Part shown: piece by piece, positions 58,799-64,000 of the stretch | Numbering within the stretch: position 1 is the stretch's first letter | Layout of the letters: each line of letters starts with the position of its first letter | Assembly: GCF_016863295.1 (NCBI RefSeq) | Contig: NZ_BOOP01000040.1 | Coordinates: forward strand, 1 to 64,000 | Reading direction: 5' to 3' | From: Planotetraspora phitsanulokensis | GTDB lineage: Bacteria > Actinomycetota > Actinomycetes > Streptosporangiales > Streptosporangiaceae | DNA: 64,000 bases | Position numbers and translations under genes: made by a program | Notes under the pieces: generated by a model | Databases searched by the model: none | Told to the model about the DNA's origin: nothing | Seen by the model: the letters and a program-made list of their open reading frames with translations, nothing else

Positions 58799-59725
58799 TC
58801 AGGCGGGAAGCAGCGCGGGCAACACGTCTTCGAGTTCGCGGATCCAGTACCGCCAGTCGTGGGTGCCGGCGCCGTAGAAGTCCGTGGTGACGGCCACGCC
58901 GGCGGCCCGCGCCGCGGTGACGAAGCGCCGGTTCCGCTCGAGGATGGACCGCTCCCCCTCGTCCACGGCCTCACCCCGGCCATCGAGCGGACCGGGCCGG
59001 CCGTCACCGCACGCGAGGTAGACGCGCACGTTCTCCAGGCGCCCGGCCAGGTCCGCCGGGTTGTGCGCCTTCCAGACCTCCGGCCGCTCCCGGGCGTCCC
59101 CCCACAGATCCCGCGGGTCCACGCCGTAATCGCGCATGAGGCCTTCGAGCCCGCCGGGGTCGTATCCGGTGTCGATCACTCCGGAGAACGACGCCGCCGC
59201 CTCGAAGACGCCCGGATGCCTGGCCGCGTACGCGAGCGCGCCGAACCCGCCCATGGAGGCACCCGCGACCGCACGGCGGTCACCTGTGCGGTAACGCGCC
59301 TCCACGAGAGGCATCACCTCTTTCAGGTGGAACGACTCCCAGGCGGGGCCGTCGAGCCAGTCCGAGTACCAGCTCATCTCGCCGCCCTCCGGGACGACCA
59401 CGACGGCTTTCAGGCCGGCCGTAATCCGCTCGGCGTCGCCGTACACCAGCCACGCGTCCCCTCTGCTGACGCAGCAGCCGTGCAGCAGGTAGAGGACCGG
59501 CCATCCCGCGGACCCCGGCATCCAGCCCTCCGGCTTGAGCACCCAGACCGAACCCTCCCGGCCGAGCGCGGGCGACCGGATCGACAGGCGGTCCACCCTG
59601 GCGCTCAGCCCCTCGACGGCGGTGATCCGTGCCCCCGCTCCGGTGCCTTCCGTCGTCGTGCCCGGCGCCCCGGAGCACGCCGCCACAGCGGCGAACAAGG
59701 CCAGAGCAGCAAAGATCCGGCGCAT
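58799..59725 (-). CDS. Secreted lipoprotein esterase, antigen-85/esterase-D family
   Basis: A 308-residue alpha/beta hydrolase of PF00756. A lipoprotein signal ends in VAACSG (Cys17). Catalytic features are LYLLHGCC, the nucleophile GASMGGFGAL (Ser157) and GAGTHDWRYW with the histidine. Relatives include mycolyl transferases, S-formylglutathione hydrolases and tributyrin esterases; a cell-surface ester hydrolase is likely. The ATG at 59725 follows GAGAGAGG. It converges on the histidine kinase gene and is divergent from the nonulosonate cluster. Confidence 0.88.
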   Translation of the reverse strand: MRRIFAALALFAAVAACSGAPGTTTEGTGAGARITAVEGLSARVDRLSIRSPALGREGSVWVLKPEGWMPGSAGWPVLYLLHGCCVSRGDAWLVYGDAERITAGLKAVVVVPEGGEMSWYSDWLDGPAWESFHLKEVMPLVEARYRTGDRRAVAGASMGGFGALAYAARHPGVFEAAASFSGVIDTGYDPGGLEGLMRDYGVDPRDLWGDARERPEVWKAHNPADLAGRLENVRVYLACGDGRPGPLDGRGEAVDEGERSILERNRRFVTAARAAGVAVTTDFYGAGTHDWRYWIRELEDVLPALLPA

Positions 59726-59891
59726 TCCCGCACCTCTCTCCACCGAGATCGCGCGCTTCGACGTCATCCAAAGTTAAACATGCGGCCTATACCTGTTCAG
59801 CTGACTCACGCCCAACCAGCGCTCCCACTGACTAGGTTTCGGGGCACCCCCAATCTGGGGGAACTGTCGTCGCGTGCAGAAGGAGTCACTC

Positions 59892-61964
59892 GTGCGAGTG
59901 CTGGCTGTTGTCCCCGCCCGTGGTGGTTCGGTGGGCGTCCCGCTGAAGAACCTGGAGAAGGTCGGAGGCACTCCACTGGTCGCGCGAGCGGTCGCCGCGT
60001 GTGTGCAGGCCGAGCTCATCGACGAGGTCGTCGTCAGCACCGACCACGACCGCATCGCCGAAGTCGCCGAGAACGCGGGAGCGCGCGTCGTACGCCGCCC
60101 GGCCGACATCAGCGGCTCGACCGCCTCCAGCGAATCGGCCGTCCTGCACGCCCTGTCCGAGGGCCTGGACGAGGACCCGGAGATCGTGCTCCTGGTGCAG
60201 TGCACCAGCGCCTTCATCGACCCGGCGGACCTCGACGCGGCCATCGCGAAGGTCGTGGCGGGCGAGGCCGACTCGGTGTTCTCGGGCACCGAGACCTACG
60301 AGTTCGTCTGGACCGGCGACGGCCACGGCGTCAACCACGACCCCGCGACCCGTCCCCGCCGCCAGGACCGCGATGCCCAGTTCCGCGAGACCGGCGCGTT
60401 CTACGTCATGCGCACCGAGGGCCTGCGTGAGCACGGGCACCGCTTCTTCGGCCGGATCGCCGTCCAGCAGGTCCCGGCCGAGCACTCGGTCGAGGTGGAC
60501 ACCCCCGAGGACCTGAAGATCGTCCGGGCCCTGGCCCCCGTCGTGGACAGGCCGCTGCCGATCGACGTCGACGCCGTGGTGACCGACTTCGACGGCGTGC
60601 ACACCGACGACCGCGCGTTCGTCGACTCCGAGGGCCGCGAGCTCGTGGCCGTCAGCCGCGCCGACGGCATGGGCGTCTCGCTCCTCAAGCGGGCCGGCGT
60701 CAAGGTCCTGGTGCTGTCGTCCGAGCAGAACCCCGTGGTCGCCGCCCGCGCCGCCAAGCTCGGCGTGCCCGTCGTCCAGGGCCTGGCCACCAAGCACGAG
60801 GCGCTCAGCGAGTGGCTCTCGAGCGAGGGCCTCGACCCCGAGCGGGTCGCCTACATCGGCAACGACGTCAACGACCTCGCCGCGATGTCCCTCGTCGGCT
60901 GGCCGGTCACCGTACCCGACGCCCACCCCCGTGTCCGCGCCGCCGCGCGTGTGGTGTTGTCGACCCCGGGTGGCGCCGGAGCCGTCCGCGAGCTGTCGGA
61001 CCGCGTGCTCGCCGCCCGGCCCGAGGCCGACGCGGCCGCCCCGGTCGCCCGGCCGACCGTCACGGTCACCTCGGCCGCCTCGCGGCCCCAGCCCGCTCCC
61101 GTGCAGATCGGCGACGCGCTGGTCGGCGCCGGTCAGCCGGTCTACATGATCGCCGAGATCGGCATCAACCACAACGGCGACGTCGACATCGCCCGCAGGC
61201 TGATCGACGTCGCGGCGGACGCCGGCTGCCAGGCCGTCAAGTTCCAGAAGCGGACTCCCGAGATCTGCGTGCCGGTGGAGCAGCGCAGCCAGATCCGGCA
61301 GACTCCGTGGGGCGAGATGACCTACATGGAGTACAAGATCCGAACCGAGTTCGGCTACGACGAGTACTCGCAGATCGCCAAGCACTCCGAGGAGCGCGGG
61401 CTCGCCTGGTTCGCCTCCCCCTGGGACGTCCCCTCGGTCGAGTTCCTCGAGGCGATGGACGTTCCCACGCACAAGGTCGCGTCCGCGTCGATCACCGACC
61501 ACGAGCTGCTCCGGGCGCTCGCGAGCACCGGCAAGCCGATCATCCTGTCGACCGGCATGTCGACGCTGGAGGAGATCGACAAGGCGGTGGAGATCCTCGG
61601 CACCTCCAAGCTCGTGATGATGCACGCCACCTCGACCTACCCGCTGCCTCCGGAAGAGGCGAACCTCCGCACCATCGTCACCCTCCAGGAGAGGTACGGC
61701 GTGCCGGTCGGGTACTCGGGTCACGAGCGCGGCCTGCAGATCTCGCTCGCGGCGGTCACGCTCGGCGCGGTCACCGTCGAGCGGCACATCACGCTCGACC
61801 GGACCATGTGGGGTTCGGACCACGCCGCCTCCCTCGAGCCGAGCGGCCTGGAGCACCTGGTCCGGGACATCCGCATCATCGAGAGCGCGCTCGGCGACGG
61901 CGTCAAGCGCGTCTTCCCGGGCGAGGAGGCCCCCCGCGCCCGCCTGCGCCGCACCACCGTGTGA
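59892..61964 (+). CDS. Triple-domain nonulosonic-acid synthesis protein (NeuA-KdsC-NeuB fusion)
   Basis: A 690-residue fusion. Residues 1-215 are a CMP-nonulosonate cytidylyltransferase (VVPARGGSVGVPLKNL, STDHDRIAEVA, VDTPEDL). Residues 227-375 are a KdsC/NeuA-C-type HAD phosphatase (TDFDGVHTDD, LSSEQNPVV, GNDVNDLAAM). After an Ala/Pro linker, residues 405-690 are a NeuB-type synthase (AEIGINHNGDV, KFQKRTPE, STYPLPPEEANL, VGYSGHERG, ERHITLDRTMWGSDH). The SAF/antifreeze domain that normally ends NeuB is absent. One polypeptide could thus make a 9-phosphate, remove the phosphate and activate the sugar, as in Kdn synthesis from mannose 6-phosphate. The GTG at 59892 follows AAGGAG. Confidence 0.92.
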   Translation: MRVLAVVPARGGSVGVPLKNLEKVGGTPLVARAVAACVQAELIDEVVVSTDHDRIAEVAENAGARVVRRPADISGSTASSESAVLHALSEGLDEDPEIVLLVQCTSAFIDPADLDAAIAKVVAGEADSVFSGTETYEFVWTGDGHGVNHDPATRPRRQDRDAQFRETGAFYVMRTEGLREHGHRFFGRIAVQQVPAEHSVEVDTPEDLKIVRALAPVVDRPLPIDVDAVVTDFDGVHTDDRAFVDSEGRELVAVSRADGMGVSLLKRAGVKVLVLSSEQNPVVAARAAKLGVPVVQGLATKHEALSEWLSSEGLDPERVAYIGNDVNDLAAMSLVGWPVTVPDAHPRVRAAARVVLSTPGGAGAVRELSDRVLAARPEADAAAPVARPTVTVTSAASRPQPAPVQIGDALVGAGQPVYMIAEIGINHNGDVDIARRLIDVAADAGCQAVKFQKRTPEICVPVEQRSQIRQTPWGEMTYMEYKIRTEFGYDEYSQIAKHSEERGLAWFASPWDVPSVEFLEAMDVPTHKVASASITDHELLRALASTGKPIILSTGMSTLEEIDKAVEILGTSKLVMMHATSTYPLPPEEANLRTIVTLQERYGVPVGYSGHERGLQISLAAVTLGAVTVERHITLDRTMWGSDHAASLEPSGLEHLVRDIRIIESALGDGVKRVFPGEEAPRARLRRTTV

Positions 61965-61977
61965 TCGCGGAGGGCTG

Positions 61978-62919
61978 GTGATCACACTTTCGGTCGTCGT
62001 GCCGGTCCGTGACGGGGAACCGTACATAGCCGACGCCCTGACGTCTCTGGTCCGGAACGTGTCCAGCACGTTCCGGACCGAGGTCATCGTCGTCGACGAC
62101 GGATCGGCCGACGCCACCCCGGAGGTCGTCGAGGACTTCCGGGACGACCTGCCGGGGCTCGCGGTCATCAGGAACCCGGCTCCCGTCGGCCTCGCCGACG
62201 CAAGGAACCTGGGGCTGCGGCAAGCCACCGGCAGGTACGTGACGTTCCTCGACGGCGACGACTGGCTGGCGCCCGGCTACCTGGCCCAGCTGGTGTCGGC
62301 CATCGAGGGGTTCGGCTGCGACTTCGTCCGGGTGGACCACATCCGGGCGGAGGGCCGCAAGCGGGAGATCTTCCGCGCGCCGGAGGCCCGCAGGAACGTC
62401 GTCCTCGACCCGCGGGAGTCCATCCTGCCCGCAGGCGCCAAGACGCTGGTCGACTACCCCTTCGCATGGGCCGGCATCTACCGCCGCGAGTTGGGTGAGC
62501 TGCTCACCTTCCCGAGCGGCCTGCACACGGCCGAGGACCGTCCGTGGATCTGGCGGCTGCACCAGCGGACGAGGTCGTTCGCGATGGTGTCGCTTGCGGG
62601 GGTGTTCTACCGCCGGGGTTTGCCAGGCTCCCTCACGCAGGTCGGCGACGATCGGCAGCTGTACTTCTTCGACGCGTTCGAGCAGGTCTTCGCGGAGGTC
62701 GAGGAGAGGTTCCGGCCCAAGGCGATCCGGACGTTCTGCGCGTTGCTCGTCAACCATCTCGAGGCGGGGCACCGGTTCACCCCGGAGACCGCGGCCCGTT
62801 TCTCGGCCCGGGCCACGGAGGTGCTGACCGCCCTCCCGGAGGATCTTCTCGCCGAGGCCATCGCGACCAACGAGCCCGAGCGGCAGGCTACGCTGCTGCG
62901 CCTGAAGGAGGGCTCATGA
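61978..62919 (+). CDS. Family 2 glycosyltransferase
   Basis: A 313-residue GT-A fold transferase. VVVPVRDGEPYIADAL, IVVDDGSADATPE and the DXD-type FLDGDDWLAP are the standard GT2 motifs, and YPFAWAGIYRREL with HTAEDRPWIWRLH marks the acceptor half with an ED motif. It begins 13 bp after the fusion gene (GTG after GGAGGG) and overlaps the next gene by four bases. It probably adds a sugar to, or starts, the nonulosonate-containing polymer. Confidence 0.9.
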   Translation: MITLSVVVPVRDGEPYIADALTSLVRNVSSTFRTEVIVVDDGSADATPEVVEDFRDDLPGLAVIRNPAPVGLADARNLGLRQATGRYVTFLDGDDWLAPGYLAQLVSAIEGFGCDFVRVDHIRAEGRKREIFRAPEARRNVVLDPRESILPAGAKTLVDYPFAWAGIYRRELGELLTFPSGLHTAEDRPWIWRLHQRTRSFAMVSLAGVFYRRGLPGSLTQVGDDRQLYFFDAFEQVFAEVEERFRPKAIRTFCALLVNHLEAGHRFTPETAARFSARATEVLTALPEDLLAEAIATNEPERQATLLRLKEGS

Positions 62920-64000
62920 ACCAGGTGTTCCACGCCTCGCGGTTCTTCGGGGCGATGACCATCGCGGCCGCGATCGACGCGGGGGCGTTCGGCTCCGCGG
63001 ACCGGCGGGTGTTGCTCGTCACCAACAACGCGGACATCCCCGAGGTCGCCCAGTCTCTGGACGAGACGCCCGGGTTCGCCGCGCTGCGCGACAGGTTCGA
63101 CGAGATCCGTTCGTGGAACGAGATCATCGCGCCGCTGCACCCGTCCGAGTGGAAGGCCCGCGCGGTCGAGGCGCCCCTGTTCGCACGGCTGCTGGAATCC
63201 CACCTGGGCATCGACCGCGTGGACGAACTGGTCCTGGAGTCGGTCATCGTCTCGCCGGCCCGCACGCTGCCCGGGCTGTTCAAGGACTGCAGGCTGACGG
63301 TCTACTCCGACGGCCTGATGGCCCACAGCCCGACCAGGGACCCGCTGCCAGCGGAGATCTCCGCCAGGGTCGCCCGGCTCATCCATCTCGGCCTGGTTCC
63401 CGGTCTGACTCCCCTGCTCCTCACCGAGCACGGCGTGCCGTCCCACGAGTTGCCGGTCGACGCCTTCCGGCGGGTCGTCGCGCAGGTCGCGGCCACGGAG
63501 CCGGACGGCCTGCAGGGCGACGCGGTCGTGCTCGGGCAGTATCTGGCGGCCCTCGGCATCGTCACCCCGCAGGAGGAGGCCGAGCTGCACGCCTCCATGT
63601 TGCGGGCCCTGGTCGCCAGGGGGCATGAGCGGATCGTGTTCAAACCGCACCCGGCCGCGGGACGGCGGCAGAGCATGCAGCTCAAGCGGATCGCGGCGGA
63701 CGTCGGCGCGCACCTGGTCATGGCGGGTGAGCACATCCCCGCCGAGGTCCTGTTCGCCAAGGTACGGCCCGCACTCGTCGTCAGCTGCTTCTCCACGGCA
63801 CTGATGACGGCGCGGAAGTTCTTCGGCCTGCCCGTGGCGTCCATGGGCACGGACCTGCTGCTGGAGCGGCTCAAGCCGTTCGAGAACAGTAACCGGATCC
63901 CGGTCACGATCGTCGACGCGAGCGTCCCCCGGCTGGCCGCGGACGGCTCCCTGTCCGCGCCCGCACCCGTCGACCTCGGCGAACTCATCGGCGCCGTCGC
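62916..64000 (+). CDS. Polysialyltransferase-like protein (PF07388 type), incomplete at the window end
   Basis: An open frame of 361 codons that has no stop before the window ends. It begins NQVFHASRFFGAMTIAAAID and holds YSDGLMAHSP (acidic-Gly motif), VFKPHPAAGRR (the HP motif that binds the CMP-sugar) and VVSCFSTALMTARKFFG, the pattern of alpha-2,8-polysialyltransferases. It should polymerise or cap a surface glycan with the CMP-nonulosonate made by the fusion protein. The ATG overlaps the previous stop (ATGA) and follows AAGGAGGG. Linkage and sugar are not predictable. Confidence 0.85.
   Translation, partial: MNQVFHASRFFGAMTIAAAIDAGAFGSADRRVLLVTNNADIPEVAQSLDETPGFAALRDRFDEIRSWNEIIAPLHPSEWKARAVEAPLFARLLESHLGIDRVDELVLESVIVSPARTLPGLFKDCRLTVYSDGLMAHSPTRDPLPAEISARVARLIHLGLVPGLTPLLLTEHGVPSHELPVDAFRRVVAQVAATEPDGLQGDAVVLGQYLAALGIVTPQEEAELHASMLRALVARGHERIVFKPHPAAGRRQSMQLKRIAADVGAHLVMAGEHIPAEVLFAKVRPALVVSCFSTALMTARKFFGLPVASMGTDLLLERLKPFENSNRIPVTIVDASVPRLAADGSLSAPAPVDLGELIGAV

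Follow-up and report, generated by a model that had tools for sequence, protein, structure and literature searches.

A three-enzyme fusion protein without a SAF domain in a predicted Kdn wall-polymer cluster of Planotetraspora phitsanulokensis

The gene cluster SCO4873-SCO4882 of Streptomyces coelicolor is described as a teichulosonic acid cluster and a target of PhoP (PMC13011467; here and below, papers are cited for individual passages), and SLI_5146-5156 of S. lividans is described likewise (PMC8003754). The polymer is composed of galactose and 3-deoxy-D-glycero-D-galacto-nonulosonic acid (Kdn) (PMC11481543, PMC7831098); SCO4878 is annotated as a glycosyltransferase and SCO4880 as a transferase (PMC2267785), and SCO4881 as NeuB (PMC2367054). 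Promicromonospora citrea has a Kdn teichulosonic acid that bears sulfate (PMC6801904). For Planobispora rosea, a Pho-regulon table lists the orthologues EV45_RS15220-RS15235 and RS38880 as activated, the profiles of these genes are described as similar to those of PhoP-activated genes, and a 'sialic acid synthase' is paired with SCO4880 (PMC8269224). Here we analyse a related locus at the end of a 64,000-nucleotide stretch of Planotetraspora phitsanulokensis DNA (the window; positions 1 to 64,000 of contig NZ_BOOP01000040.1, which comprises 116,672 bases and is numbered as the window), where a cytidine monophosphate (CMP)-nonulosonate synthetase, a HAD phosphatase and a NeuB synthase are joined in one protein.

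The cluster is of a known kind, the Kdn wall polymer (teichulosonic acid) type, with a lineage-restricted triple fusion. We judge it likely, with a probability of about 0.82, that the cluster, probably controlled by PhoP, makes a phosphate-free, Kdn-containing wall glycopolymer and that the fusion turns mannose 6-phosphate into CMP-Kdn. This reading is built on computed domain content, catalytic residues, a recurrent gene set, clade-wide absence of the SAF domain and PHO-box-like repeats. It connects a three-enzyme protein with a wall polymer that is known, though little studied, in actinomycetes that produce antibiotics. For Streptosporangiaceae it outlines a cluster of two operons, together with candidate control sites and a transferase that had no annotation.

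The fusion protein and the absent SAF domain

An open reading frame (ORF) occupies 59874-61964 on the forward strand. A GTG start codon at 59892, which fits GGAG at 59882-59885, gives a single protein of 690 residues (59892-61964) in which a CMP-nonulosonate synthetase is followed by a HAD 9-phosphatase and then by a NeuB barrel without SAF. The Pfam matches, CTP_transf_3 (E 7e-25), HAD hydrolase families and NeuB (E 5e-82), confirm the three joined enzymes of the initial annotation, and the lack of any Pfam match to SAF in the fusion protein confirms the missing domain. The domains are as follows.

59892-60548, forward strand: CMP-nonulosonate (probably CMP-Kdn) synthetase domain; PF02348; closest to 9t4z by sequence and fold.
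60549-61049, forward strand: HAD phosphatase domain of the KdsC / Kdn-9-phosphate (KDN-9-P) phosphatase type; NCBIfam KdsC and KDN-9-PPhBT matches under cut-off.
61098-61964, forward strand: NeuB synthase TIM barrel without SAF, including the stop codon of the fusion; PF03102; top fold match 6ncs.

Among NCBIfam models, those for KdsC, KDN-9-P phosphatase, NeuB and PseI matched, each under its curated cut-off; the KDN-9-P phosphatase equivalog NF058599 scored 85.8 bits against a cut-off of 180. The closest solved relatives, in sequence and fold searches alike, are the CMP-Kdn synthetase PpNeuA (9t4z) for the CMP domain and 3mmz of Streptomyces avermitilis for the HAD domain. A structure model of the fusion reached a mean predicted local distance difference test (pLDDT) score of 82.7 and a predicted template modelling score of 0.46, and the mutual placement of the three domains is therefore not predicted. 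The genome holds one NeuB, a second NeuB match being a DAHP synthase.

Relatives were drawn from two samples: a class sample of 394 genomes, with a threshold of E 1e-20 for matches to the fusion protein, and a sample of named genomes made up of the best 80 loci, which are the nearest relatives rather than a random selection. Matches of at least the E 1e-20 level occur in 120 of the 394 class genomes, some of them to the NeuB part only. Single-protein fusions account for 15 of the 80 named loci: 13 in Streptosporangiaceae (Streptosporangium 2, Planobispora 1, Acrocarpospora 1, Nonomuraea 4, Herbidospora 3, Microtetraspora 1, Microbispora 1), one in an uncultured Isoptericola and one in Arthrobacter castelli. 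Mapped on an 81-row NeuB tree, fusion requires three changes (L064, which is unscorable, was left out). We read these as three putative gains, one gain and two losses being another possible history. Chance or an assembly artefact as the source of the fusion was considered and ruled out, the frames being uninterrupted in 14 class-sample genomes (L004-L017, the window's included) and in those 15 named loci (L064, at a contig edge, left out). Open-access literature yielded nothing on point for fused or SAF-less synthases, subscription papers lying mostly outside the search; as far as our searches show, the triple fusion is new.

Absence of SAF is the rule of this NeuB clade, whether split or fused. 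In all 80 named loci the NeuB frame ends at most 28 residues past the barrel match, leaving no room for SAF, and in 20 cluster NeuBs, the window's among them, it ends within 20 residues. A Pfam scan of trimmed NeuB regions found SAF in none of 14 clade members; as a positive control, SAF was matched in 11 of 12 more distant NeuBs, one of these matches (L139) at 19.6 bits against the Pfam cut-off of 21. The sole SAF-less protein among the 12 (L147) is 48% identical to the window's NeuB. In known NeuBs, SAF residues, including an arginine, contribute to substrate binding (PMC7591256); the C-terminal SAF that carries this arginine in canonical members is absent from the window's NeuB. Two accounts of the absence were rejected. 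SAF was not lost along with fusion, as split relatives also lack it, and no separate gene near the cluster compensates for it, the genome's one SAF match lying on another contig, apparently in a 230-residue CpaB-like protein. Since the absence is clade-wide and 6ncs is a solved SAF-less structure, the missing SAF is not a new architecture; that part of the initial annotation's proposal of a new synthase architecture falls away, while the triple fusion stands, being found repeatedly in Streptosporangiaceae and also in two other lineages.

Residues of the active site were compared in 81 aligned sequences, using the numbering of Neisseria meningitidis NeuB, with roles taken in part from PMC7591256. 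Equivalents of E25, N29, H30, K53, Q55, K129, S132, S154, Y186, S213, H215, E234, H236 and D247 are kept in all 81. The T110 equivalent is Ser throughout, and the N184 equivalent is Ser in 80 sequences and Gly in one. A loop TPWGxMTY (TPWGEMTY in the window), with its Trp, residue 473 of the fusion, present in 81 of 81, is typical of the clade.

Some observations touch the limits of the clade. SAF-less NeuBs with CMP synthetase and HAD were seen in metagenome-assembled genomes (MAGs) labelled Pseudomonadota, bacterium, Chloroflexi and Poribacteria (L092, L113, L124 and L131, respectively); if the binning of these genomes holds, the clade may not be only actinomycete. One locus of an Acidimicrobiia MAG (L103) holds two NeuB relatives on opposite strands, at 63% and 56% identity. 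As to taxon labels, L096 and L105 are Brevibacterium and L106 is Streptantibioticus.

The cluster and its candidate PHO boxes

The remaining features, some of which lie past the edge of the window, are as follows.

61978-62919, forward strand: GT2 glycosyltransferase; PF00535, E 3e-32; accompanies the cluster in relatives.
62916-64214, forward strand, crossing the window edge at 64000: polysialyltransferase-like gene; PF07388, E 2e-28.
64321-65541, reverse strand, past the window: DUF6716 glycosyltransferase; PF20471, E 6e-132.
65538-66656, reverse strand, past the window: ESPLQ-type polysialyltransferase-like protein, start uncertain; no Pfam or NCBIfam match.
59773-59805, forward strand: PHO-box-like direct repeat of three 11-nt units, GTTAAACATGC-GGCCTATACCT-GTTCAGCTGAC, upstream of the fusion; weak.
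66733-66765 of the contig, reverse strand, past the window: PHO-box-like repeat TTTCAACCTGT-GTTCACCGCAT-GTTCCTGCCGC of the second operon; the clearer site.

The GT2 and polysialyltransferase-like genes that had been proposed downstream of the fusion are thus borne out, the ATG of the latter at 62916 overlapping the GT2 stop codon. Beyond 64000, the polysialyltransferase-like gene ends at 64214 and two more glycosyltransferase-type genes, of the DUF6716 and ESPLQ types, follow on the other strand; they are conserved in relatives, so the suggestion of a minimal system does not hold. The polysialyltransferase-like protein had no match among PDB sequences, and the ESPLQ family profile found nothing credible there. 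An AlphaFold model of the ESPLQ-type protein, made from a 40-sequence alignment (mean pLDDT 86), has its best PDB match in 5wcn, a CDP-bound bacterial polysialyltransferase (E 1.9e-6, template modelling score about 0.47), with the CMP-bound sialyltransferase 8sv2 ranking ninth amid mostly plant UDP-sugar transferases. Judging from this model, the protein is probably a GT-B transferase using a CMP-sugar, the match being to a fold class and no proof of substrate.

All seven components, namely NeuB, CMP-nonulosonate synthetase, HAD, GT2, the polysialyltransferase-like protein, DUF6716 and the ESPLQ-type protein, lie on the window's contig. The same genes recur together there and in 20 fetched neighbourhoods, though not all seven in every locus, and the set also recurs in the named loci, some of which likewise lack members. 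Streptomyces loci have the order polysialyltransferase-like-GT2 / DUF6716-CMP/HAD-NeuB-ESPLQ, in agreement with the annotations that PMC2267785 and PMC2367054 give for SCO4877-4882.

Beyond the ESPLQ-type gene stand a sulfatase (PF00884) and then a set of genes read as ABC sugar-transport. The sulfatase, at contig 66853-68433 (L003:7853-9430), adjoins the second operon, and its relative was seen in L034 only among the 20 fetched neighbourhoods; as the Kdn polymer of P. citrea bears sulfate (PMC6801904), a link between the two is possible. On the other side, an esterase gene (PF00756; window 58799-59767) is divergent from the fusion, with relatives beside the cluster in seven of the 80 named loci (L056-L059, L062, L065 and L066).

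PHO boxes of S. coelicolor are 11-nt direct repeats with the core GTTCACC (PMC4415409). For the repeat at 66733-66765, none of 300 shuffles was as good, and the two-unit site of the second operon reached p under 0.01 in five of eight relatives scored (L059 was unscorable), the three in which it was not significant being Nonomuraea (L061, L067, L068). Another pattern, GTTMA-N17-GTTMA, was chosen after inspecting 24 upstream regions; of 81 sequences, 35 have it at the promoter of the cluster (the window, 12 Streptosporangiaceae and 22 Streptomyces, many of them close relatives), and about 1.43 Mb contains one match away from this promoter. The strict pattern GTTCACCN4GTTC has four sites in the genome and none in the reversed control. 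The PHO-box-like repeats before both operons, to which PhoP would bind, are compatible with the control by PhoP proposed above, the score at the fusion not being significant. Across the genome, the four sites of the strict pattern outline no clear Pho regulon.

Substrate, phosphatase and rival readings

In the proposed pathway, the NeuB part would convert mannose 6-phosphate and phosphoenolpyruvate (PEP) into Kdn-9-phosphate, the HAD part would release Kdn, and the CMP-synthetase part would form CMP-Kdn from Kdn and CTP, perhaps with channelling within the fusion. CMP-Kdn would then serve the neighbouring transferases: the polysialyltransferase-like enzyme, the ESPLQ-type GT-B protein and, perhaps, DUF6716. 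The hexose of each repeat unit would be attached by GT2, and genes elsewhere in the genome would provide export and wall attachment. A HAD lies nearby in 74 of the 80 named loci, and Glu, Arg and Lys are kept in 74 of 74 HAD domains at positions that we take, from the Bacteroides thetaiotaomicron enzyme, to be the KDN-9-P specificity set; among five solved HAD relatives, the Glu position holds Arg in three, Ala in 3n1u and Glu in 3mmz. At the level of sequence, the 9-phosphate route and Kdn teichulosonic acid of the initial annotation are supported by this phosphatase signature, by the gene order in common with the published cluster, by repeats that resemble PHO boxes and by a genome without NanE.

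The N-acetylneuraminic acid (Neu5Ac)-9-phosphate route likewise pairs a NeuB with a 9-phosphatase, and the cluster could instead make a polymer of Neu5Ac or another N-acylated nonulosonate, with NeuB acting on N-acetylmannosamine (ManNAc)-6-phosphate and HAD yielding Neu5Ac by a vertebrate-like route. PF07388 is named for alpha-2,8-polysialyltransferases, and a UDP-GlcNAc 2-epimerase-like protein is encoded elsewhere in the genome, both of which would suit such a product. We nevertheless find it unlikely: NanE is missing from the genome, the NeuC model matches at 67.9 bits where its cut-off is 235.9, the neighbouring ORFs include no recognised epimerase or ManNAc kinase (the genome was not searched for the kinase), the SAF arginine used by known NeuBs for substrate binding (PMC7591256) is absent, and the cited actinomycete polymers contain Kdn (PMC11481543, PMC6801904). 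The missing NanE, the weak NeuC match, a CMP domain nearest to PpNeuA and the known Kdn polymers together favour Kdn, without proving it.

The absence of SAF residues that aid substrate binding in known NeuBs (PMC7591256) would also fit a NeuB part that is degenerate or repurposed, in a fusion that is not a full three-step enzyme, and none of the 81 sequences retains E134, its equivalent being Ser in 73, Gly in 3, Cys in 3, Phe in 1 and Thr in 1. Such decay is nonetheless highly improbable, given that the metal-site, PEP-site and other catalytic residues are kept in all 81, that the domain is conserved over many families, and that the genome has no other NeuB; the loss of catalytic residues envisaged earlier as a possible refutation is thus found at E134 and not at the metal and PEP sites. 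The loss of E134 does weigh against a PhoP-controlled Kdn cluster, and so do several other findings. Synteny with the S. coelicolor cluster rests on annotations in papers and not on its sequence. When scored against GTTCACC, the stretch before the fusion does not exceed shuffled sequence (p 0.66 for two units, 0.22 for three); GTTMA-N17-GTTMA is absent from 46 of the 81 sequences, including every locus from L070 to L092, and has 13 sites in the P. phitsanulokensis genome, where its reversed control has three; and the other three strict sites are not before phosphate genes, as the ORFs were read. Furthermore, no exporter or wall ligase was recognised in the ORFs to the right of the cluster, where no dedicated search was made.

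Absence of SAF and presence of the phosphatase go together. Strong matches to a KDN-9-P-type HAD (E below about 1e-16), among the matches listed, occur in 73 of 78 genomes with a clade NeuB and in none of 17 with only a canonical NeuB (Fisher p about 1e-14, the genomes being related and not independent); the 78 and 17 were compiled by hand, and 25 of the 120 matching genomes were left out of them. Within 15-17 kb around each of 11 SAF-bearing NeuBs, no HAD of this type was found (E up to 0.01), and one is present at L147 (also handled as L148), where the NeuB lacks SAF. G236, which lacks a clade NeuB and is not among the 120, is the only genome with a strong HAD match outside the 78. No match to NF058599 above its cut-off was found in the 394 class genomes.

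Two side observations belong here. Five genomes (G143, G204, G293, G332 and G378) have a clade NeuB and no strong HAD match. In G175, a 1.5-Mb genome, L148:5478-8611 encodes a SAF-less NeuB (48%), a KDN-9-P-type HAD with the best NF058599 score in the class sample and a CMP synthetase, the other cluster genes not being found in 16 kb.

The link between SAF absence and the phosphatase is new, as far as searches show, and opens to experiment the idea that a 9-phosphate Kdn synthase can do without SAF. Tentatively, and at somewhat less than even odds, we suggest that SAF-less NeuBs travelling with a KDN-9-P-type phosphatase are a distinct class of such synthases, where neither the SAF cap nor the E134 acid would be needed for a substrate that lacks an N-acyl group, and the TPWGxMTY loop would close the active site. 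If so, the class would be a natural test of the role of SAF in sialic acid synthases, the repeated fusion would lead from mannose 6-phosphate to CMP-Kdn within a single polypeptide, and the fusion might serve glycan chemistry as a single-protein source of CMP-Kdn.

Comparison with known systems

The best match to the window's NeuB, in sequence and fold, is 6ncs, a sialic acid synthetase of Leptospira borgpetersenii, which, over the 285 residues of its fold-library entry, is likewise a NeuB barrel without SAF; it differs in being unfused, at 35% identity, and in lacking most of the TPWGEMTY loop in the alignment. The NeuB of N. meningitidis (1xuu) and PseI of Campylobacter jejuni (8h2c) share the barrel, the metal ligands and most PEP-site residues, but carry a domain-swapped SAF.

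Beside P. citrea with its Kdn teichulosonic acid, three other Promicromonospora species (L072-L074) carry relatives of the present cluster, GT2 and the polysialyltransferase-like gene not being found in the stretch fetched for L072 and L073. The locus of Planobispora rosea JCM 3166 (L057, a record of a different strain) matches the window in its fusion, gene order and promoter repeat, and a fusion there would explain why the P. rosea 'sialic acid synthase' was paired with the CMP-synthetase gene SCO4880. The published account differs in speaking of teichuronic acid and, in the passages cited, mentions neither the fusion nor the absence of SAF (PMC8269224). The cluster SCO4873-SCO4882 agrees in gene content and order with the Streptomyces relatives of the present one, and resembles the latter in PHO-box-like promoter repeats, which are candidates here, and in a role, here predicted, in making a phosphate-free Kdn polymer. 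In the Streptomyces loci, however, the CMP-synthetase/HAD gene and NeuB are adjacent but separate and the operons are otherwise arranged, whereas in the window the three enzymes are one protein.

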